A stretch of DNA of 64,000 nt from Thunnus maccoyii (lineage: Eukaryota > Chordata > Actinopteri > Scombriformes > Scombridae), in the NCBI RefSeq assembly GCF_910596095.1, contig NC_056534.1:8246990-8310989 (forward strand), read 5' to 3'. Numbering within the stretch: the stretch's first letter is position 1; every line of letters begins with the position of its first letter. A program made the translations under genes and the position numbers. The notes under the pieces were generated by a model. It saw nothing but the letters and a program-made list of their open reading frames with translations, was not told the origin of the DNA and ran no database searches. Shown one piece after another: positions 1 to 64,000 of this stretch.

Positions 1-470
1 GTGATCAGATGGCAGAATCAGCTAATCATTAAAGCAGTAGTTGGAGCTCAGGGCAGGTTCACCAATGGATAAATATATCTGGATATAGCTGACTGAGGAG
101 AGGATTATAATGTGTAAGCTTATTCTACAGAGACATTAATTGTGAGGCAGTCAGTATGAGAGAGTGTCAGCTAAACGCATACAATACAAAATACTATTAA
201 CTAATTAGTTTACACTTTGTGTTTTATACTTAAAATCATTCTGGTGGTTTAGAAAATTTTAGCCCATTAATTACACCATTACATCACTTGACATTACTCC
301 ATCAACTTTCCATGCAGCACTTATATAATTTGAAAACAACAGGAAATCAGTTGAACCACCTGTATACTTTGCAAAATGTTAATTTACTGGCTAAATTGTG
401 CAAAACCACCTGTGTGGTGCTTTAATGTGCACATTAAATGAAATCACCCTCGTCGTCTTTCTGCCTCCAG

Positions 471-3271
471 TCAGATCAATGCTCGGGACACGTCAGGTCA
501 GACGCCGCTGCACTTGGCGTGTGAGCGCAGTGACTCTGCGTGTGTGAAGGAGCTGTTGGAGGAAAGCCAGGCTCGCACTGACATCAGAGATCGCAACGGA
601 GAGACGCCCATGCACAGCGCCGCCAAGCAGGATTCTCCTGCCATCATTCAGGTCAGTACATGCGAAGAGGTTTTAACTTATCATGAAATCAGGTTAGGGG
701 GCAAATGATGGATCAATCTCTCTTACTAATGTGTCGTCCATCCTCTTCTCATCCAGATCCTGTGCTCACGGTTGTGCTCCGGGGTGAATGAGCTGAACAA
801 CAACGGGGAGACGCCACTCCACGTGTCCTGCCGCTTGGGCCGAGTGGAGGCCGTCAAAGCTCTGTTGGGCGGCGGAGCCAAGTGTGATATCATCGGAGGC
901 AGCGGCTACGCCATCCACGCTGCCATGAAGTACAACGAGAAGGGGTGAGCTGATGGAGGGATGAGGGTGATGAACATAAGAGTTGTACGGCCTGTCCTGC
1001 ACTCTGTGGTGTATTTGCTTATTATTTTATTGTCCAAAATGTACATTTTCAGTTACCAGCTACAGAATCACAGGAACTGGGAGGAGTCTGTATTTTCCTC
1101 AATGACACTACAAAACACATGGTTTTGAAGTAATAGTTTCCCTGGTTACCCTGCTGCTCTTCTACCATTAAGGTAGATGAATGCTTGTACTCTTTTTTTT
1201 CTTCTCTTTTTTTGGCTGGACCGCAACAGAGGAGCCCTATAACCGCGTCTGTCCATCACTGAGTCACTGAGTCACTGAGTTACACCATTGTTTTTTTTAA
1301 ATAAAGCACTTCTGTGTTCATGGTAAATAAAACAAAAGCTATATAACAAATAAATGTATGAATGCAAACTTTACACACCTGAAACACACTGTATTAGGGT
1401 CATTTACACTCAGCATTAATGAGTAACTTGACAGTTACTGTAGTAAAACTATATTTTGGGTTGTGGGTAAGTGAAATAATATATAAAACATAAAAAATAA
1501 TCGTAACTCAACCCTTCTTACACCAGCACCATATAGTCTACACCTAAAATCTGGTACAATGTATTTAAGTATTTTTAATATTTTTTTATGTGTACAGCAC
1601 ATTGAGTTACAACTACTGCATGAAAAGTGCAATACAAATAAATAAAGTTAAAGCGATGTTCATGTCTGATGGTAACCAGGCGACGTACAAATTAAAATCC
1701 CTCTAGTGTTTCATACCCGGTCCAGCCATATACCAGGTTTTGACCTAGTCTTGTGAACAAATGCATACAGGACCAGTGTGTATTGACTTTGGTATAAGAG
1801 CAGCAAACCTATTTCATAATGCTGGAGAGAACCTCTCAGAAGCACTACATCCAATGAACATATAGGAGTGGTACTGGGTATCCGAATTATCAGAATATAT
1901 GTGGTCGGAAGGGAATCTGTAGAGGTTGTTAAATGCTTTTTCCACAGAACAAGGACAGTGCTTTTAAGAAATAAAGGCTTTTTAAATAGGTCACTGAAAT
2001 TGTCAGCATACAAAATAAAAACAAAGTGGATTTTTTGCAGTTTTAGAGATATTGAATGTTGTGCTTCAGCTAATGTTTTAAACTCCCAGAATACAAAGTC
2101 TATAGCTTTAAGTTAATAGTACATGTGACTAGTCTCTTTGTGTTTCTGTCAGGTGTGCGGAGGAGATCCTCAAAGCAGACCCAGGCCAGCTCCAGGCTGA
2201 GGATTCTGTATATGGTGGGACGCCTCTCCACTGGGCCAAAACTGCCGAGGTGAGGAACATCAAGTGTTTTGTGGTTAGAATTAGTAGTCTGACTCTAGAG
2301 AAACCAAAGCGTTGAAGCTTTGATAGGAGAATAATGGATCTATGACCTTTGATGACCTCTGTGAGCAAGCAGCCCAAGTTTGAACAACATTTACAAAACT
2401 AATTTCATCCTGTATGAGTTTATGTCACTGCTTCCAATCAGAAATGCTGGCCTGTCATTGAGGCGTCCCACACCAAGACATGCAAGTTAGGCTTTAGGAA
2501 GAAGTAACAGGAGAAGTCCTGTTGTTCTGTCCATTTAATAAAGTCTTCCTCTCTCTGTGCCAGATGTGTCGTTTGCTGCTGGAGCATGGCTGTATGGTGA
2601 ATTATCTCAGTAAGACCGGAGAGAGCGCCCTCCACATTCTGACCAAGAAGGGCCGCTTTGAGGCAGCCATGGTGTTACTCACCCACGGAGCCAACGCCAA
2701 CCTGAAGGGACAAGATGGGAACACAGCTCTGCACCTCGCTATGAAGGTGAGTGTACGAGATGTTACGTCTGCCTTGCTCTTATCTTCCAGGTGAAAACAA
2801 TAATCTTACTGATAATCAAAGTGTTCATGAAAGGGAGGACAAAATGTCAAGGAGTGATTTTGCTAAGTAGTGGCAACACAGTATCGGTATGAGGGGAAAA
2901 CACTAAGAGCTACAACTCAGATTACAGGAGATTTATCCTAAAAATCCCAAACAATAGGGAAATCAGGCTGCATTACACATAAGGACAAACTTCACAGATC
3001 TCCTTTTCTGTAACAGGCAGCATGCTTACACTACAAGAACATCACACATCAATGATATATATTAAAGAGAGCTGGATATTGTCATTCTGCTGTGGAAATG
3101 CAGACGTTTTTTTGAAAATAATAATAATGCAACACTTGTGTGACACTGTGCTCATTAATTAGATGGACCACATGGAGTTGATCAAAGCTCTGATTGTATT
3201 TGGTGCTGATGTGGAGATCCACAACGACTTGGGAGAAACGCCTGGATTGATCGCTGCACGCACCAGCAAAG
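471..3271 (+). CDS. pla2g6: Ankyrin-repeat exons of pla2g6 copy 1
   Basis: Five exons encode about seven ankyrin-like repeats. Repeat cores visible in order are TPLHLAC, TPMHSAA, TPLHVSC, AIHAAMK, TPLHWAK, SALHILT and TALHLAM, ending in GETPGLIAA. The family uses this array for oligomerisation and for regulation of the lipase domain. The last three exons (2153 onward) also exist in copy 2. The first two (471-651 and 757-944) are found only here. Confidence 0.9.
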
Positions 3272-6200
3272 GTAAGAGAGACAGGATGGATGGAAAGAGA
3301 GATATCAACTGTAAGGTATACAGAAGTTGAATCAGGAAAATAAGGAACAGAGTAGGAATTCTGAGTTAGGACAGTGAAAAGCTGTGTTATATTTATAGAA
3401 CTTAATGTGACTGACCTAACACGCCTGTTTGTTCTAGTTTAATCAGATTATAACATGTTAACCCATAGTCTCATTTAACAGCATGTATTCCAATGTAGAT
3501 GGTAAAGCCGATGCATGAAAATGGTTGTTATGATATAATGAAACAATCTTTAGTGCCTTGTCTCTAAATATAAAGACCAGTTGTACCACTCTTGCTACTA
3601 ATTCATTGTTTTGTGACTATTTAGAAGCAGCATGGTTACAAAGCTTCTTTTTAAAGGTGCATCATGCAACTTTACCGTGGATGATGTAAAAACACCACAC
3701 ACTCCATTGTACATTTGCAGCATATGTATAAAGCTTTGATTTGATCATTTCCAGCTACTCAGTGATTTCAGAGCTCGCTCTCTGATCTGTAAGGGGATTT
3801 TGTGGAAAACTTCTCAGTTGATGTAGCTCCAGTCTCCTTCTCCATCTGCACATGTTCTACCTGTTCAACAGCAGAGGGCAGCACTTACAAAACATTTCAG
3901 TTGCCAAAGCTGAAAACATTTGCTCTTACATCAGTGCCACGATTAAGATATTTGTATCAGGCTTTCAGCACATATTTCTGATTTCTGCTCGCGTAAGAAC
4001 AGCATCCCAAATGTACTATTTATTACATGAGTGCTGTATTGGATTACATTTTAGTGCACTGAGTGTTTTCTAATAAATTCAGTGTATTATGAGCATAGAA
4101 TATAAGGATATAAAGCAAAAAGTAAAGGCCTAAAGTTGTGGATGTGGAAAGTCAGAACTCTGTTGAGCTGTTCTCGATATGTTGACTTTTTAGTCTAAAA
4201 AAAAAAAAATTTCAACCTCTTCGGCAACATTTAATGTCTACCATAGCAACATTTACATTGCCATGCAAAAGGCAAAATAATTTGACATTTCAGTGATTTC
4301 TAATAAAGGTCTGTGCATTGTTTCTACTGGATCTGTCTGTCTATTGAAACAAGATGATTATATGAGCATATTTGTTGTTTTCACATGGAGACAAATGTGT
4401 ATGAAACCCCATACTCGATGCTCTGAAGCAGAAATGATGGTAAATGGAGTTTGCTGTCATTAATTGATTTTTGTAAATGCATGATAATTGCTAACATCCT
4501 GCTTACATTCTTGCTTTCTCTCTCTGTCTCTTATCTATCACCCTCTATCTCTTCTCCTCTGCTTTTTGTGGTGTTTGTGCATGTCTAACTCCATTTGCGT
4601 GCATGTGTGTGTGTGTTTTTTTCGTTAAAACGAAAGGTCCGAATAGAAAGATACTGCTGGACATGCTGTGTAGTGTAGGGGTCCAGCGGTGCCTCCCCCC
4701 CTCCCCTGCCAGTCCTCCCCCCATCTCCAACAAGGCCCCACCTCCAGGCATAGGTAACAACCAACGTCCCATCCTCTGCCTCCCCTTCACTGCACTCTGT
4801 TTCAATGTTTCTCTCATCTACAGAATATGTCTCTGTTTGAGCTCTTTTACATTTTCTGTAACTTTTTACATTTAGTTTGCTGATTAGTGAAAAAAATGTT
4901 GTGTGTGCAACTTTCGAATAATCCTTAATCCTGAAAATACCAAATAACAAAAAGAAGGAATGTGTGGAAAGTAGTTAACAGAAAGAGGTTATTTTTTTAG
5001 TGCTAGATTTGAATTATGACTTGAGTACACAAGTGACTCAACAAGAAATCTGAGCTGAGGAATGTGACAGTATGAGAGTGAGAAGCTCTTGTAAATTAAA
5101 TAAGATAAAGCAAGTATCCTTACATGAAAGCAACATGCACGCATATCTACTTGACATTCTTGGTATAACTCCCCTGTGGCTTGTAGAAAACCCAGTGACC
5201 CCTTTCCTTTTCCATCCTTTGTGCATGAATTTGATCAATACTGTTGCCATGTGTTGGTCCCACACCAATAGCTGTTATGATTGGCTCACAGGGTTTGAGG
5301 ACATCATGTTCGTGGGGGCTGCAGTCACTGCAATGAGCAGAGGCACATCTGAAGTGGACGGGCCCAAAACGGGGAAAAGGAAGTGAGTATGTTTGTAATT
5401 CCACAGTTTCTCGTCTGTTTTTCATGGTTAAAGCAAGACTATGTAACTTCTGCTGAGCAGCAGCAACAGCAGCCTCTGCTGCCACAAGTGGTAATTAAAA
5501 GACACTGATGCATTTAATTCTGTTGATATCTGAGCAGTGAGGATACCGCACTACTGTAACATGAGGGAACACTATTTGAAGGGGAACAGACTTCAACACT
5601 TGCTGTATCTAGACTGCAAGTGTGGCATGAGCAGCATGTTTAGCAGAGCAGCAGCAGCAGTGAGTGCTCCGTCTGTGTGTCTACACAGAATGTCTCCTGT
5701 GTAGACACACAGACGGAGCACTCGCTGCTACACTTGCGGTCTAGACACGGGGTTACTGTTGTGACATCCCTCGCTGTGCCTCTGGCTGATCTTATTTCTA
5801 TGATTGTCTGAACCCGCAGCACCTGTGTGCTAAAATGTAACTACTAACAGCTAGCGTTATACTGACCGACTTATGCTGCGATCCACATCATCTTCACACA
5901 CCACGGAAAATACAGTCTGGTGGCCGCTAGTATGTAACTTAATTCTATTGATACTAATATAGCTACATATTGGTGAGATAACACGTGATTATAATTTACC
6001 AAAGGGCTCATCAGGCACACCAGCTGTCGCTTATTAGCTGAACACCCACCTGCCAGTACTCATAGAACTGGAGTTACGTCCAGGTAACTACTATTTCTTG
6101 TGAAGGATCGTACCTGCTCAACCCAAGTTACATAGTGCAAGAACAGGTGTTCAGGGAGCGGAGTGGGAATGAAAGAGGCGCCTTTCTCTCTATTACAAGT

Positions 6201-9200
6201 CAGTGTACCATCAAAATGATTATGAAGCTGTTATTTTAAGGTAAATAGTTGTATAATGTTGCTTCAAAGTAAAGTTTGTTATTTGTATGTGTTTCTGTCT
6301 TAGATGAGACAAAAAGTTCTAGTGTAAAAAAAGTGATATCTCCTCTCCTCTGCAGGATGGAAAGACTGCTGTGTCTGGATGGTGGAGGTATAAAAGGCCT
6401 GGTGCTGATCCAGATGCTGATCGCTCTGGAGAGAGAGGCCGGTCGGCCCACCAGAGAGCTCTTCGACTGGGTGGCTGGCACAAGCACTGGGGGGATTCTG
6501 GCCCTCGCTATAATCCACGGTGAGTGTGTTTTTCTTTCTGCTTCCAAGAGTTTTCATACCCTAGCATCAAAACAATAATGGTGTCTCTTCAATGTGTAGG
6601 AAAGTCCATGGAGTACCTTCGCTGCCTGTACTTCAGGATGAAAGAGCAGGTGTTCAAAGGGTCACGACCCTATGAATCAGCACCACTGGAGGATTTCCTG
6701 AAGAAAGAATTCGGAGAGAACACCAAGATGACAGATGTCCAATACCCCAGGTAACTGTTCATGTCAAACTTATTGAAGTCCTTTCATCCTAGAAGAAATA
6801 TGTTTTTGTCGTTGTTACTTCACTTGAATGTTTGAGCTTCACTTAACAGAATGATGTATGTGCAGAGTTTGACACTAGAAGACTGTTGTCACATTCAACT
6901 GCTGAAGCTGGAAAGTTTCTGTGTTAAATGAAAAGTTGTGTACGTATGAGCATAATTTGTGACATCACAACTAGTTTGCTAATTCTGGTCCAGTATGAAA
7001 CTTACACAAGTGTGATGAGGAGATTTGAAACCTTCAGTGCACATACACTGAGAATGGACTTTTCAGTGAAGTAGGAGACATCTTGAAATAAAAAATATTT
7101 GCATATTCATAGAGTCTGGATTTTTCAGTGAGGTAGAAAGAGTAGATGTCATTTTAAGAATTTCTAACCACATCAGACACATTTTTATGTCTTAACACAA
7201 GTTTGAAGGGGATTTTAGGGTTAAATGTGTCCACTAGGCAATAGGCAGAAAAGTGTAAAAAGGCAGTAGAGACACTAGACATTTCACTAAATGTCAACCT
7301 CATAGTGGCGCTGGAGTAAAAGTCAGGCGATCACCAGAGTCAGTAGGATGCGTCCTCTGGGGACAATGGAGATCTGTTCAAAATGTCATGCCAATCTGTT
7401 CAGTAGTTATTGAGATATTTCATTCTGGACCAAAGTGGAGAGAAAGAAAGAATGAGTGACAGACCTCACCACCCCTTGAACAATGCTGCTAGCATGGCTA
7501 AAAACTAGTAGTAGAGGATCCAGAATCTGTAAATGAGCAAATTTTGGTGTCAAAATGCTGGTTTTTCAGGTTTTGATCAGAATGTTTTGTCAAACACTTT
7601 TATGATGAACAAAAGCTGAGATATCTGACTAAAATTCACCTTTTTATGTTAAACTCACATCTACTCTATTATCTTCTCACTCATACATTTGTTCTTGTAC
7701 AGGGTGATGGTGACCAGTGTTCTGGCTGACAGACATCCAGGAGAACTGCACATCTTCAGGAACTATGACCCTCCCTCCGTCCACAGAGAGCCCCCGTATG
7801 CCACCACGGCCACGTTCCAGCCTCTCACTGTCCCACAAGGTACTAGACCTACTGCACTAGTGCTCAGATGTTTTATGAATGGTGGGTGGTGGTGTGTGTT
7901 GCTGTCTGCCACAGTTTCCGTCATGTTGCCACCAGATGGTGACATATTAAAGTATTTTCTAACTCTACATATGGTGGTAAATTATACTCACTTCATTCAG
8001 GATTATATATTTATTTAGAAAACGAAGCCTGAGAAGTCCATTTGTGTTGTGTTGTTTGAGTGGCAACCATGTTGTTGTTACAGGATGGGAGGATGAGGAT
8101 GTGTTGATAGTAGGATACACAGTGGAGCCAACCAGAAAGCGTAGGAAGGTGACAGCTGAAGGTGTGTTTGTGAGTGAGAAACAAAGGAACAGGTTCACAA
8201 AGAACTTAACTTGGTCGGTCACAAAATTACCTCACAAACTCCCATTTGTTCACGTATAAATATTATCCAGAATACATGCTTTTGAATACTTTAAATAGCA
8301 AAGCAGCAAAAAACATGTTTCAGCCCCACACCCTTTTCAACATGGATGAATGTGTTCACTTCTTCACTGTTTAAAACTCGGTTATTGATACACAGTGACA
8401 TTTTGGCACATTTCACTTTGTACTTAAGCTTGCACCCAGAATGATAAACTAGTCGATTAGATTGATTGTTTCATGCCTTTTTAAAATCTTAATATCAGAA
8501 CAACTTGTGTGGCGAGCTGCCCGCTCCAGTGGTGCTGCCCCCACCTACTTCCGACCGATGGGCCGCTTTCTGGACGGAGGGCTATTGGCCAACAACCCGA
8601 CACTAGACGCCATGTCAGAAATCCATCAGTACAACAAAGCCTTAAAAGCAGAGGTAGGTAACCTAACACCTTACTTATCTAGTCCTCCTTTTAAAAAAAT
8701 CAAATAATCTATCATCTCTCTTTTTAACTCTTCTCTCTCAGGGCCATGGGACGGAGGTCAAGAAGCTGGGTATAGTGGTCTCCCTTGGAACTGGTAAGCC
8801 ACACAGTTTTGTCTGCAATGGCAAATAATGTAATTCACACTAACTTTTCTACATGCAAAACCAATGGCCACTTAGTTTAGTTAGCTTAGTTTATGTCTTA
8901 CCCCATCTTCACTATTCAACATGAGTCTATTAAAGTATAAGGCTGGTGGTTTTCTATATTTTTATTATTGTAAACAAATCTAATGTGCAGAGTCAAACCA
9001 ACAATGAACCTATCCTACTTACAAGTATTGTCTGTGTATCCAAAGCCTAATACATCATATTCCTCTCTGCCATAGACCTCTGTTGTTGTCCAAAAACTAT
9101 TAAAAACATGTCGATGAGCCACACCGCTGTGAGTGACATGTTCCTTCCCCCCGAAGGCAATAGTTACTGTAGTTTGTTTAGAAACGGCTCCAAAGATTAA

Positions 9201-10741
9201 TAACAGCAGTAACATTGTCAGTCTCAGGAGAGACGTTCCTTGTAATGCAGGTCCTACTGAGCGTGATGCATGCTAATGCATTGTGCTAAGGTGGCTTCAC
9301 CAGCTTGTTGTGCTAGATGTCACAACCTCTTGACTTTCAGTGCAAAGTCAAGAGATGATGATACGTCAAGATGAAAGGTCAATATGACGTGTTTTTAATG
9401 ACAACAGGGGAGCTCAGAGGAATAAGATGTATCAGGCTTTGGATAAACTCACAACACTTGTAAGTAGGATCAGTTCATTGTTGGTTCGGCTCTGCACATG
9501 AGATTTGTTGACAATAAGAAAACTATTGATTATTATTATTATTGCATAGATTAAAGGATGTTTTCAATTGCTGTTGGGGGGGGAAGGAAGAAACATGTCC
9601 TTACAAAGAGATATTAGAAATCTGACGCCTAATAAGAGTGATTTACATCCCTAACTCCTACTATGTTTGTACCTTGCTTTGACCACTGAAATAAACAATA
9701 AACATTAACACAACTCATTGTGAGTAACAAAATTTAGAAACTCCTCCTGCTCCTCCAGCTGTACAGTATCTGTGCTCCTGTGTGTCTCCAGGTAAACCTC
9801 CTCAGGTGGTGGTGAGCTCTGTGGATGTTTTCCGGCCTTCTAACCCTCTGGAGCTGGCCAAGAGCTTTGTAGGAGCCAAAGAGCTGGGCAAGATGCTGGT
9901 GGACTGTGTGAGTATAGTTTGAGCACCTGCTTTTAAATTTACCTTGCTCCTCGTGTAAATCAATGAGTGCTGGATGCTCATCATCCTCAGCTGAAACTAT
10001 ATGTTTTTTCATATTAATTCATCCTGTCAGAGTTGTGTTTTCCACTTTTTGTGAAGCCTTTTAATATTCCTGATATTTTGGACATGACAACCAGTATCAA
10101 TAACATTTCAGAAAGTGTCTCTTATTCTAATATTTCCTCTCTCTCTGACTGGACAGTGTACAGATTCTGATGGCTGTGCAGTTGACAGAGCAAGAGCCTG
10201 GTGTGAAATGATCGACACCATCTACCACAGGTCAGCTGACCATAAATCTGCAGCACTTCCGTTTTTTATTTACTGCTGTCTCTGCTCTCTGTTTTAACTC
10301 CAGCTGGTAAAGAGTAAATGATTATCTGCTATGTTCCTGGCCTAAACTAGACATCACTGCAGCTCTATAACATCATAGACAGTATAACTTTACCAACCAA
10401 CACCATCTGGCTTGAAGCTCGGGTGAAGCTCAGCTTGAGTGACCCACATCGTTACAGCCTGAGATGCATGTTAATCAAATTTGTTTCTGTTTGTGTTTGT
10501 CAAATGGGCATTTATAGTATTCATGGTTGGTCTATTATCTCTAATGTACTTCAAAACGATGTAAAATTCACTATTTATTTATTGTCTTTTGTACAGATTG
10601 AGCCCCCAGCTGTCTCAGGAGGTGATGTTGGATGAAGTGAGTGACGCAGTCCTGGTGGACATGCTGTGGGAAACCCAAATGTACCTTTATGAGAAGAGAG
10701 AAGTCCTCCAATCCCTGGCAAAAGTGCTAATGGACAACTGA
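471..10741 (+). CDS. pla2g6: Calcium-independent phospholipase A2 beta (iPLA2-VIA), copy 1, 5'-partial
   Basis: Hydrolyses the sn-2 acyl chain of phospholipids without calcium; the family acts in membrane remodelling at cytosolic and mitochondrial membranes. Exons read by eye: 471-651, 757-944, 2153-2249, 2564-2746, 3163-3271, 4637-4753, 5292-5382, 6356-6519, 6600-6750, 7703-7839, 8499-8653, 8742-8793, 9792-9907, 10157-10230, 10597-10741. All joins keep phase, giving about 650 residues. Seven ankyrin-like repeats ([36 protein letters not shown] and others) come first. A proline-rich linker follows, then the patatin domain with glycine motif CLDGGGIKG, nucleophile elbow GTSTGG and catalytic Asp in DGGLLANNP. 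The start codon and about the first 145 residues, judged against the mammalian protein, lie left of the window. The linker matches the long mammalian isoform (PPPIS). The gene converges on receptor Ig-1. No break was seen. Confidence 0.95.
945..2152 (+). other. pla2g6 copy 1 intron holding the left duplication breakpoint
   Basis: This intron has no coding. From 1245 onward it matches the left end of the second pla2g6 copy (33521 onward). Bases before 1245 have no match there. The duplicated block therefore began inside this intron. Confidence 0.8.
3916..4248. other. Intron segment present only in pla2g6 copy 1
   Basis: The two copies align on either side (…GTTGC-AAAGCTGAA… and …AACATTTACATT…), but these roughly 330 bases are missing in copy 2, where the flanks meet near 36226. 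It includes a run of A at about 4197-4209 and has no coding. It could be an insertion here or a loss there. Confidence 0.7.
5438..6136. mobile_element. MITE-like non-autonomous DNA transposon in a pla2g6 intron
   Basis: A 12-base perfect terminal inverted repeat is seen, ACTATGTAACTT at 5438-5449 and AAGTTACATAGT at 6125-6136. It is flanked on both sides by the 5-base direct repeat GCAAG (5433-5437 and 6137-6141), as expected of a target-site duplication. The interior has no transposase coding and holds a long foldback. The family cannot be named from sequence alone. Copy 2 carries the same left end with the same flank. Confidence 0.7.
5608..5745. repeat. Long foldback (hairpin) inside the MITE-like element
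   Basis: The inner arms 5656-5688 and 5697-5729 pair over 33 bases, with one G.T wobble, around an 8-base loop. Outer arms 5608-5623 and 5730-5745 pair at 15 of 16 positions, leaving a one-sided bulge. The inner part, about 5637-5812, is missing in pla2g6 copy 2. Confidence 0.85.
6356..6519 (+). CDS. pla2g6: pla2g6 copy 1 exon with the catalytic serine
   Basis: This exon reads [18 protein letters not shown], then [25 protein letters not shown] is the GXSXG nucleophile elbow of patatin-like lipases, and DGGGIKG is the glycine-rich oxyanion/nucleotide motif. The acceptor is placed at the AG ending at 6355, because the previous exon ends in phase 2 and an alternative acceptor after 'gtcttag' near 6303 would give an immediate TGA. 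Confidence 0.92.
8499..8653 (+). CDS. pla2g6: pla2g6 copy 1 exon with the catalytic aspartate
   Basis: The exon encodes [19 protein letters not shown] followed by [18 protein letters not shown]. The Asp of DGG is the second member of the patatin Ser-Asp dyad. The reading is nearly identical to the mammalian protein over this stretch. Confidence 0.92.
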
Positions 10742-13295: not shown

Positions 13296-13572
13296 TTTCT
13301 ATGGATGTCCATCACTGCCAGTGTGCTCCTGAGGTGCTCGCTCATGTAACACCAGAAACATATCCCTTCGTACATCATGAAGGAAGGTTACATTCATTCT
13401 CTTTAAGTTTTTGTTTTCTGTATAATTTTAGGGATCCACCACCTGGCCATTATACCTGAAAAAAAAGAAAAGAATGTACTGTGTAAGTGTAATGTGGGTT
13501 AATTATGTTTCAAAGTAGGCTGTTTAAAAATATATAAGAAAAACAATTTTTACATCTCAAAATCTTTAACTA

Positions 13573-13618
13573 CTTAAAAGGTATGTATGTACTTTAAGGT
13601 ACACACATACCTTTTAAG
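13573..13618. repeat. Small inverted repeat near the 3' end of Ig-1
   Basis: Arms 13573-13592 and 13599-13618 (CTTAAAAGGTATGTATGTAC and its complement) pair at 19 of 20 positions around a 6-base loop. The matching places behind Ig-2 and Ig-4 have an unrelated short sequence, so the hairpin is specific to this copy. Confidence 0.7.
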
Positions 13619-50900: not shown

Positions 50901-53900
50901 AGTGTACTGTTGGAGAAAGTACTATATTATTGTATTAATATTTAGATGATCGTTAATCCAGTGTAGAAGTGTGATCAACTGATCGATTTTGTCTTTAAAG
51001 ATGCTTTGAACCTTGTTAATGTAGGCAAATTAATGTCTGGTTTGTTAGGAAAGAAGAAATAGAAAAGTTTATCTGAAGTGAATGATACACGTTGACTCTG
51101 ATTCTAAGAAGTGATAGTTAGAAAAGGGAACTAAATGCAAACTGGAAATTGTACAAGACAGGCATGACACAACATATGGAATTATTATTGATTATCTTAC
51201 AGGAAACAGATGTCTGCAGACAGAAGAGTATGACTATGCACAAAGTATGTGTGTTAACAGTTGTGTTGAGCAGAGGCTGAAAGTATAAAGTGTTTGTGTG
51301 AGCTGTTCAAGGTGTTCCTCTTGCTGCACAGCTCAGGGAGCTCGTATGCAAACACTTTACTGATTTATTAAAGGCAGTTGGACAGCAAGAAAAATACTGT
51401 GTCTCTGGTATTTAATTACCTTAATCACCTAACTAGACAAATTGATATTTCAGCTGCAGCTTTTGTTTATTTTTCCAATATGTAAAAATAAACAAAAAAC
51501 TGTAATCAATCAATCATTCTTGTTTCTATTTTTTAGACAAACCCACTCTGCAATCTGCATCATCACAAAGCATTTAAATTTAAGAATTACCTGTGACAAC
51601 CAAATTCACTCCAGAAAAATCTGACTGTTTCCGTCCTCCATGATGTCGTTCCAATCTGAATGTGTATTCTGCAGAGTCGTTCTTCTTCAGATGTTTGATT
51701 CTCAGGATGTGTTGGTTCTTCACACTGTCATGATACTTTACACGACCTGCAAGCTCAATCACCTTTTTAACTTCCTCCTCACCACCTGCCGTTATTTTAT
51801 ACCATAATTTTGACTTGGGCCTCTGCTTTTTAGGATACGAGTAATTACTTGAAATGTTCACTGAAGAGCCTCGCAGAGCACAGATCCTCCTCCTGACATA
51901 ATTCACACTCCAGCAGTTCTTATCCTCAACACCTGAAATGGACAGAACAGACTGAATAGACTTACAGTAGTTTTTAGGTTAAATGTCCGAATGACTATTC
52001 ATTCAGTTTCCACCATTGTCATTCTTTTGCAATGTCTTTAAATATCTTCAATCAATTATTTTATCCAATTTGGAAAATGTAAAAAGAAGTGTACAGTATA
52101 TGTTATGTATATATGTATATCTTATCAAAAAATAAGTCATATATAATAAATTAAATCTTATTTCAGTTTTGAAGGTTTGTGCATTTTTCTGCTGTGAGCA
52201 TGTGCAGTAAGTTGTAACTGTTGACAGGAGCACACTCCTCACAGGCGCCTTTGTTCATTCAGCGTCACAGAAAAAACAGTCTAAGGCAATTTGTAAATTC
52301 AGTTAAATTTTCTGTTCTTTACAGTTGAGTGTTGTAGAAAGAAATGGTTTCATCAATTTATAGCTGTAGTCCAATTTGTAGTTTTATGAATAGCTTTATG
52401 ATGAGAAAATGCTCCTGTTTCCCCTCATTGACTCTTTGATCAGACATGGTCGCACAGGGACATCTAGTGTCCACAAGTTGTGAAAGCAACTTTTTAATAT
52501 CTGCAAGATCATTATTGCATCACAGAGTAGAGTGACCAACCCTACTTTCCAGAGCAACTTTTGGTTTATTTGCCTATTTGTGACACCCAGAGACCCTCAT
52601 CAGCATAGTGATTGGGGATTTTTCAGGAAGTGAATAATGCATGAGTATTGTCACTACGTCTTATGCAATCATCGTACATACTAAGCCTACTGTAGGCTAA
52701 AGAGTAAGTCAGGATATTTGTGGTTAGTGTAATAATGTGTATATGTTCATGACACAATCTCTAAAATGAAACGGTTAAGTATTTTTAAATTTCTAATGTG
52801 TAATTATTGTGTAATTATTATGTGTTGTCATTATACAGACTGTGATTTACAGCTTCACAAGCGAGTCATATCAACTCAAACACCAATCAGCAGTTCATGT
52901 TGTCTTTAATAAGACACACTGGTTACCAGCAGATCACCTCCATCACTGACTAAATCATAAGTCAGATAATGGATTAATAACACTACAAAGAAAATGAAAA
53001 TGAGGTTGAATCGACAATTCTGAAATATATTTCATGTTGCCCAATAAGCTTACAAACTAAAGACAAATGTGCCATCCTATAATATAACAGTAATAACAGA
53101 CTGTAAGTTGGTTTATACTCACAGACTTCAGCAGAGTGCAGATCCTCGTGGTCTTTGACAGCACAGGAGAAGATATCAGGAGAGGAGTTGAGAACTGAAA
53201 ACTGCTGTTTCTTCTCAGACATTAAGAGTCTGTTCTTGTACCATCTATAGGCAGTTTGGATGTCAGTCAGTGGACAGCTGGTGTTACAGGTCAGTCTAAC
53301 ATGGTTCACCTCTGTAGGAGTCCTTTGTAGACCTACTTCTGTTAGGAGATGTTAAAAACATCTTTCAACAGTTTTTGTGTGAATTAAATAAAAATGATAT
53401 ATTGATTAAAAAGTTATTGAAGTGTGGTTGGTGAAAACAATAATGTGTAGAACTGCAGTAAGCATGTCAGTAACATAGTAAAATTAGAAAAGAAAGAAAG
53501 CAAATATATGACAATTAGATGTCTGTTCTTAAAATATTGTTTTAAAGGTGTTCTAGGTGTGGGTGGTGGGAGTGGTGTTTGTGTAAATGTTTGTGGATGT
53601 TTGGAGAAAGTTAACCTCTGGGATATGTGATGGAGCAGGACTCATTCACTGATGTCTGCTTTTCAGAACACATTCTTCCTTCAGCGTAGGTCACAGTAAA
53701 GCAGGTCGATGTGACAGAATCTGAACAAAAACAAATGGCATTTAGTAATTTAACTGGTAAACACTTAGTTAGAGTATTTCATAGGCTTTACAATTTAAGG
53801 CAAAGCTTAAATCGTAAAAATATTCTTGAAAGTGTTTAACTTGAAGTTTTGTAACATGAAAAGGAGCCAAATGTTGTCACTCACCCACTGAGACTTCAGG

Positions 53901-54803
53901 AGCTCTGAGATGCTCGTAGCCTTTGATAGCACAGGAGTATCTGACTGCTTCCTCACTGCTGACCAGCTGTTGGTACCAGGGAGACCAGTCTTGATAGAGA
54001 AACTCTCTGTTCTTGTACCAGATGTAGGCTGTAACGTTTTCAGTTGGAGGACAACTGGTATTGCATATCAGTGATATTGTCTGTCCCTCTGTGGCAGGAA
54101 TCACCTTCACCTGCAGGTCTGAGATGATGGTGAATAACGTAAGAATTCATATTCTGATTTCAGTCTTAAAGTAATACATTAGTGAAAACCACCGTACCTG
54201 CAATACGGAGCTCAGTTCTATTGTGCCAGCAGAGAATTGGTGTCTTTGTAGTCTTGCTGCAGCAGTAAGACTTTGCATCACTCTCTCTTAGATCATTTAT
54301 TGTTAGAGTTGGATGACTCTTTTCAGACATGTTGTACGTTCCACGATTTCCATCTGCAGAGAGTTCACTGAGAACAAGGTTGGAGCCATCCTGGTATACA
54401 GTGAACCATTTCATGCTTGAAGTGGGATGTTGAGCTGAGCAGGGCAGATCCACTGATGAACCTTTTAAGGCACAGATACTTTTGGCTTGTCCCTGAACCC
54501 CTTGAACAGAAGCATTAATTCATAATTATAACGTTCTTCTAATGTTAATCACTAAAATTTGATAGTATGAAATATTGTAAATGAAGGACATTATTTGTAT
54601 AATCTGCAATTTTCTTCAAGTTCTTCGAACTTTAACTCCTATAATCAAGTAAAACATTATTTCTTTTACAGATTACAGTTAATAATCTCATATTGAATAT
54701 ATCATGTTAATAGTCATTATATAAGAAGAGATAAACAATAATTCATACCTGAGATGCACAGAATGAAAGCCATAAACACACAGCCATCTTCTACCAACAA
54801 CAT
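47937..54803 (-). CDS. CD22/Siglec-like Ig receptor with ITIM tail, Ig-5 (type B), intact
   Basis: The only complete type B copy in the window. Exons: leader 54749-54803 (MLLVEDGCVFMAFILCIS), V1 54198-54500, C2a 53885-54118, half-V 53616-53720, C2b 53123-53338, V3 51591-51932, C2c-membrane 50037-50376, tail-1 49895-49940, tail-2 47937-48131. Phases match those of Ig-1 and no stop was found. The stalk is short (AAAAGA) and the membrane segment is VVALLVITPLFVFLWI, followed by RR. Tail motifs are LHYSRV and VAYAVV, both fitting the ITIM pattern, plus LYSNV; the first type A tyrosine (VYEDI) is VNENI here. It is likely an inhibitory leukocyte receptor. The ligand is unknown. Confidence 0.85.
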
Positions 54804-57472
54804 GGCTGTTGTAGTCCCTCCGCTTCTAAACACAAAGTTGATTATATTAATTTTTTATTGGCCTTACCACACCTGCTGTGTTTATGAAAGCTCATAAAAC
54901 ATCAAATCTATGAATAAATGGTCAAAATCAGCAGCAGTCCTCTTACAGAGTAAAGACTTAAGAGGACAGAATGGACTGTTGGTCATTGTGAGAGTTGCGG
55001 GCAGATGCACAGCATGAAGCTCTGACACCTGAAATTCACTTCCTTCCTCATTGTTATTCTTAGTCAAACCTCTATTAGAGAATCTACCTTACATAGTGTA
55101 GTGTTTATTTGATGTCATAATTTGAGAAGGAAAACTTTGACTTTAACTTATGGATGTCATTATATTTCTTACTCTGTATCTCATCACAATTATTACTGTT
55201 ATTTTCTGATTTTATAGTGTATTGGTTCTTCATGCCAGATATTTTAGTGTTAAACTGCATTATATTTTCATTGAAAAGTTGTAAAAACTGCTGAAGTGAG
55301 AACAGAGAGATGTGAAGCTGTCTATGGACGGTGTTGGTGGTTTCTGTGTTGGAAACTGCAGAAGTTTATGGTAACTTAAAACACTGCAGAGCATGCAGAA
55401 TAGGACTAATAATAGTATAATATGTTGTACATGAAGGACATCTGAAGAAATCTTGGGAGCATTTTTGTTTTTTTATTCTTCTTTTCTGTTTTCTGTAAAT
55501 CAATCCACAATTTTCTACAAATTGTTCACACTATAACTCTTAAACTCCATTAAACATGTTATGTGTATTTCTTACAGTTAACAGTAAATGATCATTACAT
55601 CAGAGAGGATAAACATTTATACCTGAGATGCTCGGGCTGAAACCAGTAAACACACATCCAACTTCTGCCAACAACATGGTTGTTTTAGTCCCTCGCTTCT
55701 AATCAGTGGACTTTTTTCACAGCAAACACTTTGACTTGTTAAAGCAGAAAAAATACAGGTGTAAATAACATTAATGTTGGCACCAATACTGCGTCTATAA
55801 GTTGATTATATAACAGTGTTTGTATCTGCTACATCATAACTGCTGACTTTATGAAAGCTCATAAAAAAATGTAATTGAAGAGTCTAAATTAAGAGCAGGT
55901 TTATAGAGAAATGACTGAAGCCAGAATGGACTGTTGGTCAGTGTGAGGGCGGCTGGCAGACATGCTGCATGTAGCTCTGATACCAAAAATAAACCTCCTT
56001 CCTCATTATAATTCTTAGTAAAACCACAGATAAACAATTTATGTGGTACAGCAGTTGTTTAGTTATTTGATGTCATATTTTGACATGGAAAACCTACATA
56101 TTTACTTCAAGGTGTCAATGTTGGTCAGAGAGGTGTGAGACTGTCTGTGTTTGTTTCACCGTGAAACAAAAAAACACTTGTGAAGAGGAAGCTGCAGACA
56201 TAGTTTTTATGATCACATCATACACTGCAGAACATACAGAGTAGAACATGTTTCTGAGAGCAAAATAAGTTTTACAAAAGCATTTTTACAGTTATGGCTG
56301 CAAATCAAACAGAAAGCACAGTAATACAACATGAAGCACACCAGAAAAAAACACAAAATGTTTCAATAAGCTTACCTGGCATTGCATTGTGGTCTGGCAA
56401 TGCCATTAGTTAATTTACTATAAGTATTCTGTGCAGTTAGATGAGGAGTGATCAGTCTGTTCAATCATCCCTTGCGATGCGGCTTCATCTGCCTTTACTT
56501 GAGCTTTTAAATAGTCTGATTCGACAGTGAAATGGTAAATGAGGAAGATAAATCTGTGGCCTTATAACCTCTAAATCATAGATTTTTTTCTCCAAATTTT
56601 CTCAGGGATTTTCAAGCAGTGTTGCATACTGAGCTGCACTCGCTTTTAGGTAATTGTGTTCTTGAATCTAACACATGGAAATGTGTGATATCTCCTTCTT
56701 GAAGATGTCTCCTAAAGAGCTTGACTTTGTTGACAAATATAAAGGTCCACCAAAATTTTCAGCTTCCTCTGTTGATCCAAGTTAAGTCTGTCTCAATGAT
56801 GCAACATGTCCGTCAACAATCCACTACAAATCTAAAAATCTACACAAAGCGAGAAAGCATGTGAAAATGTGGTCCAAATATAAAAAAAATCGGTAGATGA
56901 TGCAGTGAAAAGTCCAAAAGTCTGGAAGTCAGGAGACAGGAACTTCACCTACTTCAAAGGTGCATGGAGAAGAGGAAAAAGTCTGAAGAGGTTGAAGCTC
57001 AGGCAGCACTTTTAGTTTAAAGAACAACTTTATTGCGAGACCAATGTGTTTTGGCTGGTTTCACCCATATCCATCATTAAGCACACCCCTTACCTATCTG
57101 CTAGTTTAGAAATATGACTAATCTGAAACCAAATGACCATACCAGTCCCATCTATGTGTGAGTAACCCACTGGCTTTTTGTGTACTTATCATACCTCATC
57201 TCATTTAAATGTTCTTTGTGTTCCACTGATGAGGGACACAAGCCAAAACACATATGTATCACAATAATTGTTCTCTATACTACAAGTGTTTTCTTTTTTC
57301 TAGCAAATGTGAAAAAGTCTTCAGATACACTTGATCTGCTGTTTCAAAGCGTTCGGTACTTTTGGGTAACTGCTGGTAAACATGGAGTGGAGTGTAATTG
57401 TGCCAGAGATTAGAAACTTTGAAATGTGACATTGAAGTCTGGCATATAGCAGGCAGAAAGTTCAATGGTTGA
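54804..57472. other. Spacer between Ig-5 and Ig-6
   Basis: It holds the duplicated upstream/leader block and both repeat-like blocks shared with the spacer behind Ig-2 (about 56430-56795 and 56880-57185). No other gene is seen. Confidence 0.55.
55623..55677 (-). pseudogene. Second leader-like exon upstream of Ig-5
   Basis: It starts MLLAEVGCVFTGFSPSIS on the minus strand, with an intact donor (CTCAG then GTATAA), about 870 bases upstream of the working leader. The core is less hydrophobic, so it may be non-functional or an alternative first exon. Confidence 0.6.
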
Positions 57473-59148
57473 TCACTTTGGGGTCCTGTTGGGTATAAAG
57501 TTGACAACAGCATAAGCGACGTCGTCCTGTTCTTTAGACTGGTGTGGCTGGACGTTGGAGTAGAGAGGATGTGTCTGGGTCTTAGAGAAGTGGACTCTGC
57601 TATAGTGAAGATCATCCTGCTGTGTTGGTTGGGCTGAGATGTTTTCATTCACAGGACCAGGGTTTAACTGATGAGAAGACAAGACAAATAATATTAGTTT
57701 ACATTGTGGGGCACTAAACCTCTAATAATAAGGAGTAACTGCTGACCTCACAGCCTTAGAGGTATAATTAGTTTGTCCAAAATATGTTTATTTTCTTTTA
57801 CAGATAGTTTTTAGGTCAGAGTAATCTTCATGATATCAATGATAAATGATTAATGAATGAATGAATGATTTATCCATATCAAATGATTTACAAATGGCTG
57901 ATTTGTGTTGGAAGACTAATGTAGCTGTGTAATGTGGACCGCAGTAGAAGACATTATAGATGTACAGCACATCTACGCTGCAAAATTTGGACCCATAAAA
58001 CTAATGATACTGTACAATGTAGTTCTGCATTGTTTTGTATCACTTGAAGGATCATCTCATCTGAGGGGAAGCAGGACAGACGAAGGTGAATTTTTTCCAA
58101 TGCAGCAGAATTTAAAATATTCTGTTCTTTGAGAAGGAACCGCAAATCCTGCACACTCAGGTAAAAAATCCTACTTTCTTACTTGAAAGTCTATGACGGC
58201 CCAAAGTGTTTTTAATTAAGTAAAATTGACCTACAATGTGAGTTTTAGATCTTCGTGACCTGTCATTAAAGCCAAACTGAAATTTGAATTCTCTCCATAT
58301 TTTGTGGAAGGAAATATAAACAATCATGAAACTGCAGATATCGTGTATAATTCTCAATGTTTCAAAAGAAGATCAAACAATTTTTGGACATATTGTGGAA
58401 ACAGTGTCTTAGCTTCAGGCCTGTGGGTGGGTGTTTCCCTTTGTAGCAATTGACTGACATTTGAATAGTGTTGTTGCAAGGAGACACGCTGTCAGCTTGC
58501 TGCTGCTCAACTGACTAGAGAACGTCATACTCTGTATAGCCTCTGATGTTGCTGATAAAGGGAAAAAACATCTTGTATCAGGACGTTTTTTCCCCTTATC
58601 AACAAGTTCACATAGTGTTGGTTAAGTCCTCTTAGTGATTAAAGACATCTGTCCATTTACGATATTCAGTATTTGGGAGGACCCATCATGCTGTGAAGTC
58701 TGTATTTCACTCAGAAACTGGAAACTAGATAGCTGGACTAACTAGCTTCCACTCAGAAGGTGAGAGCTATGTAAACTAGCTTGTTAAAGTTAGCACTGAT
58801 TCCCACAAGACGTCATTTTTGTTCACACTATTCAACTCCTGCTGAGTCATTCTGCACACTCAGTGCTGTGTTTGTCCCACATTATTAAAAAGAGGAGGTC
58901 TAGTTAGCGTTAGCTGTCTCTCTTTCACAGGTCCATATACAGTATGGTGATGGAAAATGACTAGACTGTCAAAACTACAAGTTGAAACTAACAGCAATGA
59001 GTCCTTTAATGTCAGCAGCCCACCATGAATTTAATTTCGACTTTAAAAATTAAACGTTGTGCAAAATGTTTTTGAAATATCTGTTCTTTACCTGCTCCAT
59101 GTTGACTGTTGCTTCGGTACCTGAAGTCCTTCTTTTTCTAGATAGTGA

Positions 59149-59209
<61 letters not shown>

Positions 59210-62200
59210 GAATAAGCAATTTTAGGTTAGAAATTAAATGTAATTTCTTGCAACAGAGCAGGGTTTTGCTTACCCCCTAATCCACAAGGAGACAAAAAGA
59301 GGTGTTATAACTAGAAGAGCAACAACAGCTCCTGCAGCTGCAGCTAATGTATATTTACTTTCAACAGTAAGAGTCCTGTCACTGGAGTTGAAGTTCTTGT
59401 GAGATGTCACAGCACAGGAGTAATTTCCTGCATGATGACTTCTGACTGGGTCTAGTACCAGTTGTTTGCTTTGGCTGTGTGACAGGTTCACAGGTTGTTT
59501 GTTCAAATACCAAATGTAGGTTGTGTTGTCAGTCAGAGGACAATTGGTCATGCAGGTCAGTGTGACTCTTTGGCCCTCTGCCACCACAGCAGGATGCAAC
59601 TTCACTCTCAGGCCTGGAAAATGGTTAGATTGGTCAGTAAATGTAAAAAGAGACATCCATAAGTCATCAAACCTAAATAATAAGTCCTTATTCCTAAATG
59701 ACCAAATTCCTGACTTGTCAAACCTGTAACATGTGTTCCATAAGTGACTTGTATGAGCGTTTTAGTAGTAGTATGGTGGGGTTTTATTTATGACCACAAG
59801 GTGGGGCTATTGATGCCATGATTCAGTGTGTCGTGCAGATTCTCATGGAAAACCTGTCTACCAAGTTTCATTTCATTAAAGACAACAGAATTGCTGAAAT
59901 ATCAAGTTATAAGGTGAATTTAGTGCCCCCTGTGGGGAAAAATTTCATGAAATGTTACACACTTCTGACAGGTCACCTTGTGTACAAAATTCCCAAATTT
60001 GGTCACAATCCGACTCTTTATTGAGGAGTTATTGACCATTAAGTGCATTAGGCCACACCTTCAAAAGCTTGCTAACCAATAACAGACAAACCGAATGTGA
60101 TATCTGAAAACAAATGAATAAGTTGTGTTCAGGGTCCTCTAAACATGGTATGTACCATATTTGGTGAAGATTGGATGAAATATGTGCCAACAGAAGCAAA
60201 ACATATGTTTGTTGAAAAAAACAAAATGGCGGACAAATTTTATAGGCGCAAATGGGCGTGGCCCATATCAGTCTAATCAGCATCATCCAAGGAACATCCT
60301 GACCAAATTTTTTTTTTTTGATAGGACTTACCGTTCATGAGTTATTAGCCAAAACGCAAAACATTTAATAACTGACCACATGGTGATGCTATTGATACCA
60401 TATTTTAATATGTTAAGCATTTTCAAATGGGACACCTGTACTTTAAATATGAATAGCCTAGCACTTTTAGTTTTTGAGATATTAGCTTTCAAACATTCCT
60501 TCCATAGACTTTCCATTATAAATTTTAATGTTAAAAAAATATATATAAAATCACTGGATTAAGGTAGAAAGCTGAAAAGGTATAGCATAGATTTCCTGAA
60601 AGAGCTGAAAATTTTGATATTTGAATGGTTTATGTCGCTCAAAATATAGAGGAGTTGAAAGCTTTCAAAAAACGTACGGAAGAATAAGAAGAAAAAGAAG
60701 AACTAGAAAAAGCAATTTTTGTAGAAATTGTGTGTGATTGCTGAAAGCGAATTTAGATTGCATAACTGGAGGCTGAACAATATTGATTATTGTCACACAG
60801 CAATGCCAGGCTAGATTCTGGTGTTTACTCTATCAATTGCATGAAATTGACGAGAAAGCAGTCTTATTAAGCAGATTGACATCACCTGGAATCCTTCATC
60901 CTTCAACTCTACTGAGTTCTGCCTTAAGCGGGACTTGAACTCACAGCCTTTGGATCTAAAAGGAGTTGATATGTGACATGAGCCTAAACCAATGGCCTGC
61001 TCAGACAGGATCTGTTAAGTCAGAAAAGATGTATTTAACAAGAATAGCAATCCACAATTTAGGTAATAATGTTAATGTAAGCTAAAGAGGTATTGACTTA
61101 TGGTACATGATAGAGATGTAAAGCAACTTTGTACATGAGAGAAATATTCTGAGGAGTAAAGCAATGAGTGGGTATTGAACACACAACCTTATCATCTAAG
61201 GTGAAGCTGATCAGAAAACAGTGTTCTAAACCACTGAGCCAACAGACATTCCCAGTAAGGAAAGCAAAAAATCTCCATTTTGATGATGAAAATGTATTTG
61301 TCTCAAACTAGAGCTTGAAACCCAGAGATTTGTACATCATTAGTGAAAGCAAGACTAGTTTACCATGAGAATGAATAATATGTGTAAAAAGTGTTTGAAG
61401 GAAGAGAGAATCTGTAAGTTTAAGAAACCAGAGTGAGAGGAGACACGCATCCTGCAGACTGTATTACAGTCAATGAGAACATGACAGCAACTCTCTATCA
61501 ATTAAGGTTCAGATCTCAAAAATTATAAGTCCTATGTGAAATGTATTTACATTGTGAGAGAGAGGAGGCTTGTGGCAACATACTGAGGCAAGATATGTGC
61601 TTGTGGAGTTAAAATTGTGGGAGTGACAGCGTTTAGAAAAACATTTCTGGCCTAAAAACATCTGTGCTCTCCCATCTGTGCTCTCCACTGTGCCTGATTA
61701 CATGACACACTGGTGAGACCTGAAAAAGTCTGCAAAACCCCTGACTTTTGGCTTAAATTGCTGAAAAATAATAAAAGATATCACTAAACAATCTGATAAC
61801 TTTGAAAATTGAAAGTTTTGTGAACATTTTAAAGTTTGAATGGCGTCTGTAGGATAAGGGACATCCAAGCAGTTGAGTGTCAAAGTGACAATAGTTCAAA
61901 CTTAGGTGGATTGTTCGTCCCATAGTCTGCCATTACACAGATTGACAGTTAAATGGTTTTTATAGCACAAAGTACGCAGCAGTTGAAACGTGGCAAAAAA
62001 CGTATGGAAGACGGAATAAGAATAAAGAGTGAGAAGAACAATGTGTCATTGCTTCCAGCAATCACACAATAAAGATTTTGATGTATTTTGATGATCATTA
62101 ATCCAGTGTAGAAGTGTGATCAACTGATCGATTTTGTCTTTAAATAACATGATGCACTCTTGACCTTCTCTATTGACGTTTATGTGTCGTAATCACATTG

Positions 62201-63148
62201 TTCTGTTTTAAGTAAGATGCTTCGCACCTTGTTAATGTAGGCAAATTAATGTCTAGTTTGTTAGGAAAGAAGAAATAGAAAAGGTTATCTGAAGTGAATG
62301 ATACACATTGACTCTGATTCTAAGAAGTGATAGTTAGAAAAATGAACTAAATGCAAACTGGAAATTGTACAAGACAGGCATGACACAATATATGCAATTG
62401 TTATTGATTATCTTACAGGAAACAGGTGTCTGCAGACAGAGGAGTATGACTATGCACAAATTGTGTGTGTTAACAGTTGTGTTGAGCAGAGGCTGAAAGT
62501 ATAAAGTGTTTGTGTGAGCTATACAAGGTGTTCCTCTTGCTGCACAGCTCAGGGAGCTCGTATGCAAACGCTTTACTGATTTATTAAAGGCAGTTGGACT
62601 GCAAGAAAAATACTGTGTCTCTGGTATTTAATTACCTTAATCACCTAACTAGACAAATTGATATTTCAGCTGCAGCTTTTGTTTATTTTTCCAATATGTA
62701 AAAATAAACAAAAAACTGTAATCAATCAATCATTCTTGTTTCTATTTTTTAGACAAACCCACTCTGCAATCTGCATCAACACAAAGCATTTAAATTTAAG
62801 AATTACCTGTGACAACCAAAGTCACTCCAGAAAAATCTGACTGTTTCCGTCCTCCATGATGTTGTTCCAATCTGAATGTGTATTCTGCAGAGTCGTTCTT
62901 CTTCAGCTGTTTGATTCTCAGGATGTGTTGGTTCTTCACACTGTCATGATACTTTACACGACTTGCAAGCTCAATCACCTTTTTAACTTCCTCCTCACCA
63001 CCTGCCGTTATTTTATACCATAATTTTGACTTGGGCCTTGGCTTTTTAGGATACGAATAATTACTTGAAATGTTCACTGAAGAGCCTCGCAGAGCACAGA
63101 TCCTCCTCCTGACATAATTCACACTCCAGCAGTTCTTATCCTCAACAC
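57473..63148 (-). CDS. CD22/Siglec-like receptor Ig-6 (type B), 5' part outside the window
   Basis: Exons seen: V3 62807-63148, C2c-membrane 59274-59613, tail-1 59092-59137, tail-2 57473-57667. All are open and in phase. The tail reads LHYSRV, LYSNV and VAYAVV, nearly identical to Ig-5. Sequence from 63149 to the edge follows the V3-C2b intron of Ig-5, so C2b, half-V, C2a, V1 and the leader are expected to the right. The V3-C2c intron is enlarged by a 2.3 kb insertion. Confidence 0.8.
59154..59206. repeat. (AT)n microsatellite beside Ig-6 tail-1
   Basis: About 26 AT units. Ig-3 and Ig-5 have only four or so at the matching place (near 31655 and 49962). Confidence 0.95.
60928..61002 (-). repeat. 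tRNA-like sequence 1 in the Ig-6 intron insertion
   Basis: On the minus strand it has an A-box-like TTGGTTTAGGCTC, a stem CCTTT/AAAGG with a 7-base loop, and a B-box-like GAGTTCAAGTCCC. It is related to the second copy. There is no clean acceptor stem, so it is a tRNA-derived relic rather than a working tRNA. Confidence 0.45.
61166..61247 (-). repeat. tRNA-like sequence 2 in the Ig-6 intron insertion
   Basis: On the minus strand it has an A-box-like TTGGCTCAGTGGTTTAGAAC, a stem ACCTT/AAGGT with a 7-base loop that fits a long variable arm (Leu/Ser style), and a B-box-like TGTTCAATACCC. It is probably a SINE-type or tRNA-derived relic. Confidence 0.45.
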
Positions 63149-64000
63149 CTGAAATGGACAGAACAGACTGAATAGACTTACAGTAGTTTTTAGGTTAAAT
63201 GTCCGAATGACTATTCATTCAGTTTCCACCATTGTCATTCTTTTGCAATGTCTTTAAATATCTTCAATCAATTATTTTATCCAATTTGGAAAATGTAAAA
63301 AGAAAAAAACAGATCAAGCTTTTCTTTTTCCTGTTTTCTGTGGCCATCAAGAATAGAAAAATAGTGTATATCAGTGTTCAATGTACAGTATATGTTGAAT
63401 ACATGTATATAGGTTAGAGTATGTATGTATTCTTTTCTTCATTAGAACTTCAACTTCAGATGCAGTTTTTTTTCATTTTTGGTGAGTTGCCTTTATGGGC
63501 CCTTTTGGGCTTTTAAAATCTCACCAGCACAATCTATTTTTACTCCTTTAATGCATTATGTTTTTTTCATTCTTGTTATTTTTGCAAATAAACTACACAT
63601 AAAATCTTGAGGTGGACCACAAACCCCACCAAAAACTAAGTCATATGTTATAAAATAAATCTTATTTCAGTTTTGAAGGTTTGTGCATTTTTCCGCTGTG
63701 AGCATGTGCAGTAAGTTGTAACTGTTGACAAGAGCACACTCCTCGCAGGCGCCTTTGTTCATTCAGAGTCACAGAAAAAACAGTCTAAGGCAATTTGTAA
63801 ATTCAGTTACATTTTCTGTTCTTTACAGTTGAGTGTTGTAGAAAGAAATGGTTTCATCAATTTATAGCTGTAGTCTGATTTGTAGTTTTATGAATAGCTT
63901 TATGATGAGAAAATGCTCCTGTTTCCCCTCATTGACTCTTTGATCAGACATGGTCGCACAGGGACATCTAGTGTCCACAAGTTGTGAAAGCAACTTTTTA

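Follow-up and report, generated by a model that had tools for sequence, protein, structure and literature searches.

A tandem array in Thunnus maccoyii in which pla2g6 appears to have been duplicated together with CD22-like inhibitory receptors

The 64,000 nucleotides of Thunnus maccoyii DNA analysed here (NCBI RefSeq assembly GCF_910596095.1, contig NC_056534.1, positions 8,246,990 to 8,310,989 of the forward strand; hereafter the window) carry, three times over, a copy of pla2g6 (P) followed by two types of receptor gene, A and B, whose tails bear immunoreceptor tyrosine-based inhibitory motifs (ITIMs). The account that we consider rather probable is a tandem segmental duplication of the whole pla2g6-receptor A-receptor B block within an array of CD22-like inhibitory receptors, with pla2g6 as a passenger; selection would act to retain and diversify the receptor genes, with the additional copies of pla2g6 arising as by-products. 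If so, the window shows a conserved enzyme gene dragged along as immune-receptor genes beside it gain and lose copies, and it would place side by side, in one window, a pla2g6 copy constrained until recently and a receptor copy without visible constraint.

When the window is aligned with itself, the P, A and B blocks match one another collinearly and on the same strand across units, with block means of 90.7-96.4% identity; the E-value of the long self-matches is 0.0, so that chance is excluded, and the order P (plus strand), A (minus), B (minus) is seen three times, as the initial annotation had read it and as the parallel matches found for all three units, the dot-plot pattern it had called for, bear out. 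Within boundaries that are approximate for units and copies alike, unit 1 comprises P1 (1-12539, +), A1 (13293-20330, -) and B1 (20406-20938, -), unit 2 P2 (21001-21458, +), A2 (21546-28547, -) and B2 (28327-33517, -), and unit 3 P3 (33521-44367, +), A3 (44370-47411, -) and B3 (47411-55870, -), while a further B copy, B4, starts at about 56 kb and continues past the right edge of the window. The matches total 10.7 kb at 96.4% identity for P1/P3, 6.6 kb at 93.4% for A1/A2 and 4.9 kb at 94.4% for B2/B3; such multi-gene copies, collinear and in one orientation, are those of a tandem segmental duplication. The three kinds of block are similarly diverged, pairs within a type differing mostly by 2.4-6.2% (extremes 1.6% and 7.3%); divergence is 4.6-5.3% among the three A copies, in their 3' block, and 3.2-4.4% among the four B copies, in the block to which the B1 scrap belongs. 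The thrice-repeated order and the similar divergence of P, A and B argue for the proposed joint duplication of pla2g6 with a receptor pair, whereas the complete ancestral units from which the present ones would have been trimmed are plausible only. The B3-B4 spacer differs by 3.6-5.6% from the A3-B3 and A2-B2 spacers, which implies that single receptor genes, and not just the three-gene unit, duplicate here. Reading frames are open throughout in P1 (from the start of the window), A1, A2 and B3, and broken in P2, P3, B2 and A3.

The pla2g6 gene P1 (471-10741, +) was modelled from splice sites, reading frame, the match to the solved iPLA2beta chain 6aun and the Pfam families Ank and Patatin; its 15 exons in the window (471-651, 757-944, 2153-2249, 2564-2746, 3163-3271, 4637-4753, 5292-5382, 6356-6519, 6600-6750, 7703-7839, 8499-8653, 8742-8793, 9792-9907, 10157-10230 and 10597-10741), in a gene stretch of about 1-12.5 kb, join to one open frame. 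A frame broken by a missing linker exon was considered and ruled out, since the 91-base exon 5292-5382, picked among four candidates, fits both phases and restores the frame; it is identical in P3. P1 aligns to residues 149-395 and 418-750 of the 752 of 6aun (E 4e-235), and both its ankyrin repeats and its patatin domain score above the Pfam cut-off on the plus strand; the GXSXG serine motif is present as GTSTG in exon 6356-6519, and the combination identifies P1 as a member of PLA2G6. The architecture is thus that of PLA2G6/iPLA2beta, ankyrin repeats joined to a patatin-type catalytic domain, but the linker (query residues 253-317) is not alignable to 6aun and two more, broken, copies stand in tandem with it. 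The window begins within the gene, so the copy initially counted as the one intact pla2g6 is open across its 15 exons, the first ~148 residues being encoded by earlier exons to the left of base 1. An inverted repeat of about 113 bases (8953-9066 / 9416-9529), possibly a mobile element, lies in an intron of P1 and recurs in P3.

The other two copies are truncated in the manner described initially. P2 consists of a single exon, 21208-21344 (+), a copy of exon 7703-7839 that carries an in-frame stop, within flanking homology at 21001-21458; its self-match spans 465 bases, and of the four P1 exons (out of 15) searched there directly one matched. P3 (33521-44367, +) retains 13 exons within 34455-42584, with exon lengths and splice sites kept and with the catalytic exons, GTSTG included, conserved; counterparts of P1 exons 471-651 and 757-944 are absent from it. 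Relative to P1 it carries two changes of the protein, D467G (42027-42029) and E514* (42534-42536), codon coordinates derived from the P3 exon table, the latter dropping the last 16 residues; with two 5' exons absent and this stop, P3 is not a full working gene. A functional partnership of enzyme and receptors is unsupported by the window, where the two additional pla2g6 copies each carry a stop.

Despite its broken state, P3 was probably working until recently, because nonsynonymous changes are far fewer than expected without constraint. Over the 13 shared exons, 20 of 1596 coding nucleotides differ between P1 and P3 (18 synonymous changes, one missense and one stop), the introns differing at 249 of 9005 bases (2.8%). 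Under random mutation with the transition share of the introns, 73% of the changes in coding sequence would be nonsynonymous or create a stop, hence 14.6 of 20 instead of the two observed (P 7e-9). Since 6aun carries the P1 residue at both altered positions, D467G and E514* arose on the P3 side; had the P3 branch been free of constraint ever since the split, about 16 nonsynonymous changes would be expected on it (P of two or fewer, 1.6e-5), and at the 5% level it was unconstrained for at most ~40% of its length. Purifying selection would thus have acted on P3 during most of its separate history from P1, with inactivation coming late through the 5' cut, the stop and the D-to-G change; this signal favours a late trimming of pla2g6 in unit 3, in agreement with the initial reading. 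The adjacent receptor copy B2 behaves otherwise: its specific changes over 579 coding bases number 16 missense, one stop and three silent, so that 17 of 20 are nonsynonymous or stop, near the 14.6 of random mutation and resembling neutral decay, and no constraint would be visible along its branch. The two ratios, 2:18 and 17:3, differ with a Fisher P of 3e-6, in a comparison that sets a pair distance against a branch, and different genes against each other.

Several observations weigh against this picture. The block distances yield no consistent order of duplication: P1 and P3 are the closest pair in the P block, A1 and A2 in both main A blocks, A3 and B3 in the inner spacer. Any succession of events, or ancestral state, proposed for the array is tentative. 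The living B copies are themselves little constrained, B3 and B4 together showing seven missense to three silent changes over the same 579 coding bases, and this weakens B2 as a contrast; in block 32514-32883 B2 has even changed less than B3 or B4 (3 against 5 and 5 of 370). The synonymous divergence (Ks) of P1 and P3, 5.0%, exceeds that of their introns, which makes the neutral yardstick a rough one. Gene conversion between copies is likely, and it could reset the clocks; the P1/P3 differences are over-dispersed along the alignment (chi2 53.9, 18 degrees of freedom, over 19 of 24 windows, exons included, the five windows with <400 aligned bases left out), being low at 7000-7500 (3) and 11500-12000 (2), where ~12 are expected, and high at 1500-2000 (27).

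The join of B2 with P3 (33470-33560) is abrupt: in comparison with B3, A1, A2 and P1, the B homology ends at 33517, within exon D3 and eight bases inside its 3' end, and the homology to the pla2g6 intron that follows exon 757-944 begins at 33521, with about three bases unassigned. The B1-P2 join (20938|21001) leads from a B intron into the pla2g6 intron preceding exon 7703-7839, with ~60 bases unassigned. Each of these joins could be a deletion posterior to the duplication or an original breakpoint of it. On the simplest reading, B2 was lost early and P3 late, the B2|P3 join being a late deletion. A variant of the duplication scenario, which overlaps with it in probability and to which we attach a rather low one, takes this join as the original tandem-duplication breakpoint, the duplicated stretch running from position 1245, in the pla2g6 intron, to exon D3 of B; P3 would in that case have been expressed from a new promoter, as an enzyme shortened at its N terminus but catalytically complete, up to the late stop. 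A single event would then account for the 5' loss of both B2 and P3, and the abruptness of the join, the neutral-looking branch of B2 and the preserved catalytic exons of P3 all agree with it; but one later deletion explains both truncations equally well, the stop deprives P3 of its last 16 residues, and no P3 first exon or promoter was identified, the sole scan (33000-34500) having used bacterial patterns, uninformative for fish. More doubtful still is the idea that P3, during much of the time since the duplication, was a short iPLA2beta in its own right, with the final ankyrin repeats ahead of the catalytic domain, and that it was maintained by selection beside the receptors and lost only recently.

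The receptors that would drive the duplication under the passenger scenario are best represented by A1 (13816-18764, -; a model of 598 amino acids), A2 (21808-27002, -; 610) and B3 (47937-54803, -; 576), whose models run from leader to stop with open frames; the three intact receptors claimed initially are correct if these are meant, since B2 is a pseudogene. All three share one layout: a leader, a V-type immunoglobulin (Ig) domain (D1), two C2-type domains (D2 and D3), a CD22-like V-type domain (D4), a fifth domain joined with the membrane span (D5+TM) and two tail exons with ITIMs. With five Ig domains, a single membrane span and ITIMs in the tail, they would act as inhibitors at the cell surface and would recruit SHP phosphatases, as is general for ITIM receptors. 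The exons, all on the minus strand, lie in A1 at 18764-18710 (leader), 18461-18159 (D1), 18079-17846 (D2), 17302-17096 (D3), 16466-16128 (D4), 14894-14489 (D5+TM), 14393-14336 and 14010-13816 (tail); in A2, in the same succession, at 27002-26948, 26512-26210, 26130-25897, 25340-25125, 24496-24158, 22912-22441, 22345-22288 and 21963-21808; and in B3 at 54803-54749, 54500-54198, 54118-53885, 53338-53123, 51932-51591, 50376-50037, 49940-49895 and 48131-47937. Pfam was run on B3 (five domains and the ITIM exon) and on A1 (the D4 and D5 exons), the domain types of the other copies being assigned by alignment; D2 and D3 of B3 match Ig_2 below the cut-off, and D4 reaches 33.1 bits in A1 and 27.6 in B3 against Ig_CD22, whose cut-off is 27. 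A CD22-type V domain at the N terminus was not found, Ig_CD22 being unlisted for D1 of B3 at E 0.05. Among the PDB matches of B3 the first is a fusion of Fc receptor-like 4 (E 8.9e-7) and the second domains d6-d7 of CD22 (E 1.3e-6). With the ITIM signature [I/V/L/S]xYxx[L/V] as printed in the available part of PMC7226832, the tails contain LHYSRV and VAYAVV in B3, VPYAVV in A1 and VLYAVV in A2.

An F-R pair in D4 is invariant in four of four copies, and its arginine may correspond to the sialic-acid-binding arginine of Siglecs, the predicted D4 model being too poor to check this (mean pLDDT, a predicted local confidence score, 51.9); the term 'lectin-like' is, on the sequence, only a lead. Positive selection was considered in two domains and is claimed in neither: in D1 the ratio of nonsynonymous to synonymous divergence (Ka/Ks) is 0.97-1.10, but Ks is raised (0.11-0.21) and so is the divergence of the preceding intron, and for D4 of A1 against A2 a Ka/Ks of 4.6 (19.8 to 1.2 changes) has an uncorrected P of 0.043 and is one of 35 rows, seven of which, those using D5+TM of B2 and B4, were dropped. 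The stalk of receptor A contains a coding repeat of 33 bases, with 2.4 copies in A1 (14536-14613) and 4.4 in A2 (22488-22631).

The division of the receptors into types A and B holds for D4, D5+TM and the tail; the 5' half is shared. The switch is sharp, at 16719 in A1, 24748 in A2 and 52746 in B3: upstream of it, over D1-D3, the three are 5.1-6.4% apart, as within one type, whereas downstream of it A-B matches hardly extend beyond exons, with identities of ~77% in D4, ~83% in the Ig part of D5 and ~81% in the ITIM exon (88% over a shorter stretch in A2). Since the 5' halves are nearly identical while the 3' halves stay distinct, an exchange or homogenisation of the former is required. In this shared part, comparison by windows shows one region of raised divergence, the D1 exon and its preceding intron (B3 54150-54750, A1 18159-18710, A2 26210-26948, minus strand), 7-23% different among the three where flanking windows differ mostly by 2-6%. 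In A2 part of this intron (26566-26798) is 86% like the stretch preceding D4 in A2 (24527-24745) and in A1 (16497-16716), which suggests an intragenic exchange between the two.

A block pattern of this kind resembles old alleles, and a second variant of the duplication scenario, likewise overlapping with it and again of fairly small probability, holds that P1 and P3 are long-separated haplotypes, each with a working pla2g6, recently joined by unequal crossing over in a receptor array whose polymorphism is maintained by selection. It agrees with the constraint that both copies seem to have experienced until recently, and finds a parallel in the cluster of 'B-cell receptor subunits' of the fathead minnow, for which the available portions of PMC9420404 give high polymorphism and a low fixation index (FST); but B2 shows no period of constraint, and for alleles the 2.8% by which the introns differ is a large value. 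An assembly artefact, with allelic haplotypes placed end to end, would explain why the copies are similar but is unlikely, since three A and four B copies, all distinct, require more than two haplotypes, the indels differ among units, and the joins are abrupt, falling within an exon and within introns.

ITIM-bearing receptors related to CD22, and others of the leukocyte immune-type receptor (LITR) kind, have been described from fish before (PMC4810170 and PMC7226832, both in the portions available). The receptors described here share with the fish CD22-like (Siglec-2-like) receptors the V-set and C2-type Ig domains, the single membrane span and the ITIM tail, and D4 of A1 and B3 is above the Ig_CD22 cut-off; they differ in that the CD22-type V domain is the fourth, after another V and two C2-type domains. 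Teleost LITRs, distant kin of FcRL and Siglecs according to the part of PMC4810170 at hand, are also fish Ig receptors with ITIMs, and are likened here by published description only. The fathead minnow cluster, which its authors cite to a CD22 review, resembles the present one in being an array of fish immune-receptor genes, whose evolution is described as proceeding through both substitutions and changes of copy number; pla2g6 is unmentioned in the available portions of PMC9420404. A literature search that covered few subscription journals returned no report of pla2g6 duplicated with CD22-like receptors in fish, nor one on the copy number of a CD22-like paralog cluster in fish; among papers on pla2g6 duplication in teleosts, judged by title and the start of the abstract, none dealt with such an array.

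Rfam at gathering scores and ARAGORN gave no matches in the window. The remaining receptor copies, all on the minus strand, are partial or broken. B1 (20406-20938), described earlier as a scrap, is indeed a 533-base fragment of B intron, 95.5-96.1% identical to B2, B3 and B4. In the B2 pseudogene (29677-33517), D5+TM (32069-31730), a tail exon with a TAA stop (31633-31588) and the ITIM exon (29871-29677) are recognisable, the ITIM having lost its tyrosine (VAYAVV to VANAVV); by comparison with the other copies, D1 and D2 are absent, D4 is missing (at ~32514) and D3 is reduced to the last eight bases of its exon. A3 (44370-47411) retains the tail exons and part of the membrane-span exon, fused to the upstream region, D1-D4 not being found, in accordance with its description as gutted. 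B4 (57473-64000) is open, in the exons inside the window, from D4 (63148-62807) through D5+TM (59613-59274) to the tail (59137-59092 and 57667-57473); between its membrane-span exon and D4, some 2.3 kb (59764-62082) are without a match of at least 150 bases elsewhere in the window. Finally, A1, A2 and B3 each have, ~0.9 kb upstream of their leader exon, another exon of leader-like character, which occurs in A3 as well (19622, 27853, 55677 and 46580, respectively), ending in CAGGT in A3 and B3, in CACGT in A2 and in CACAT, with the GT lost, in A1.

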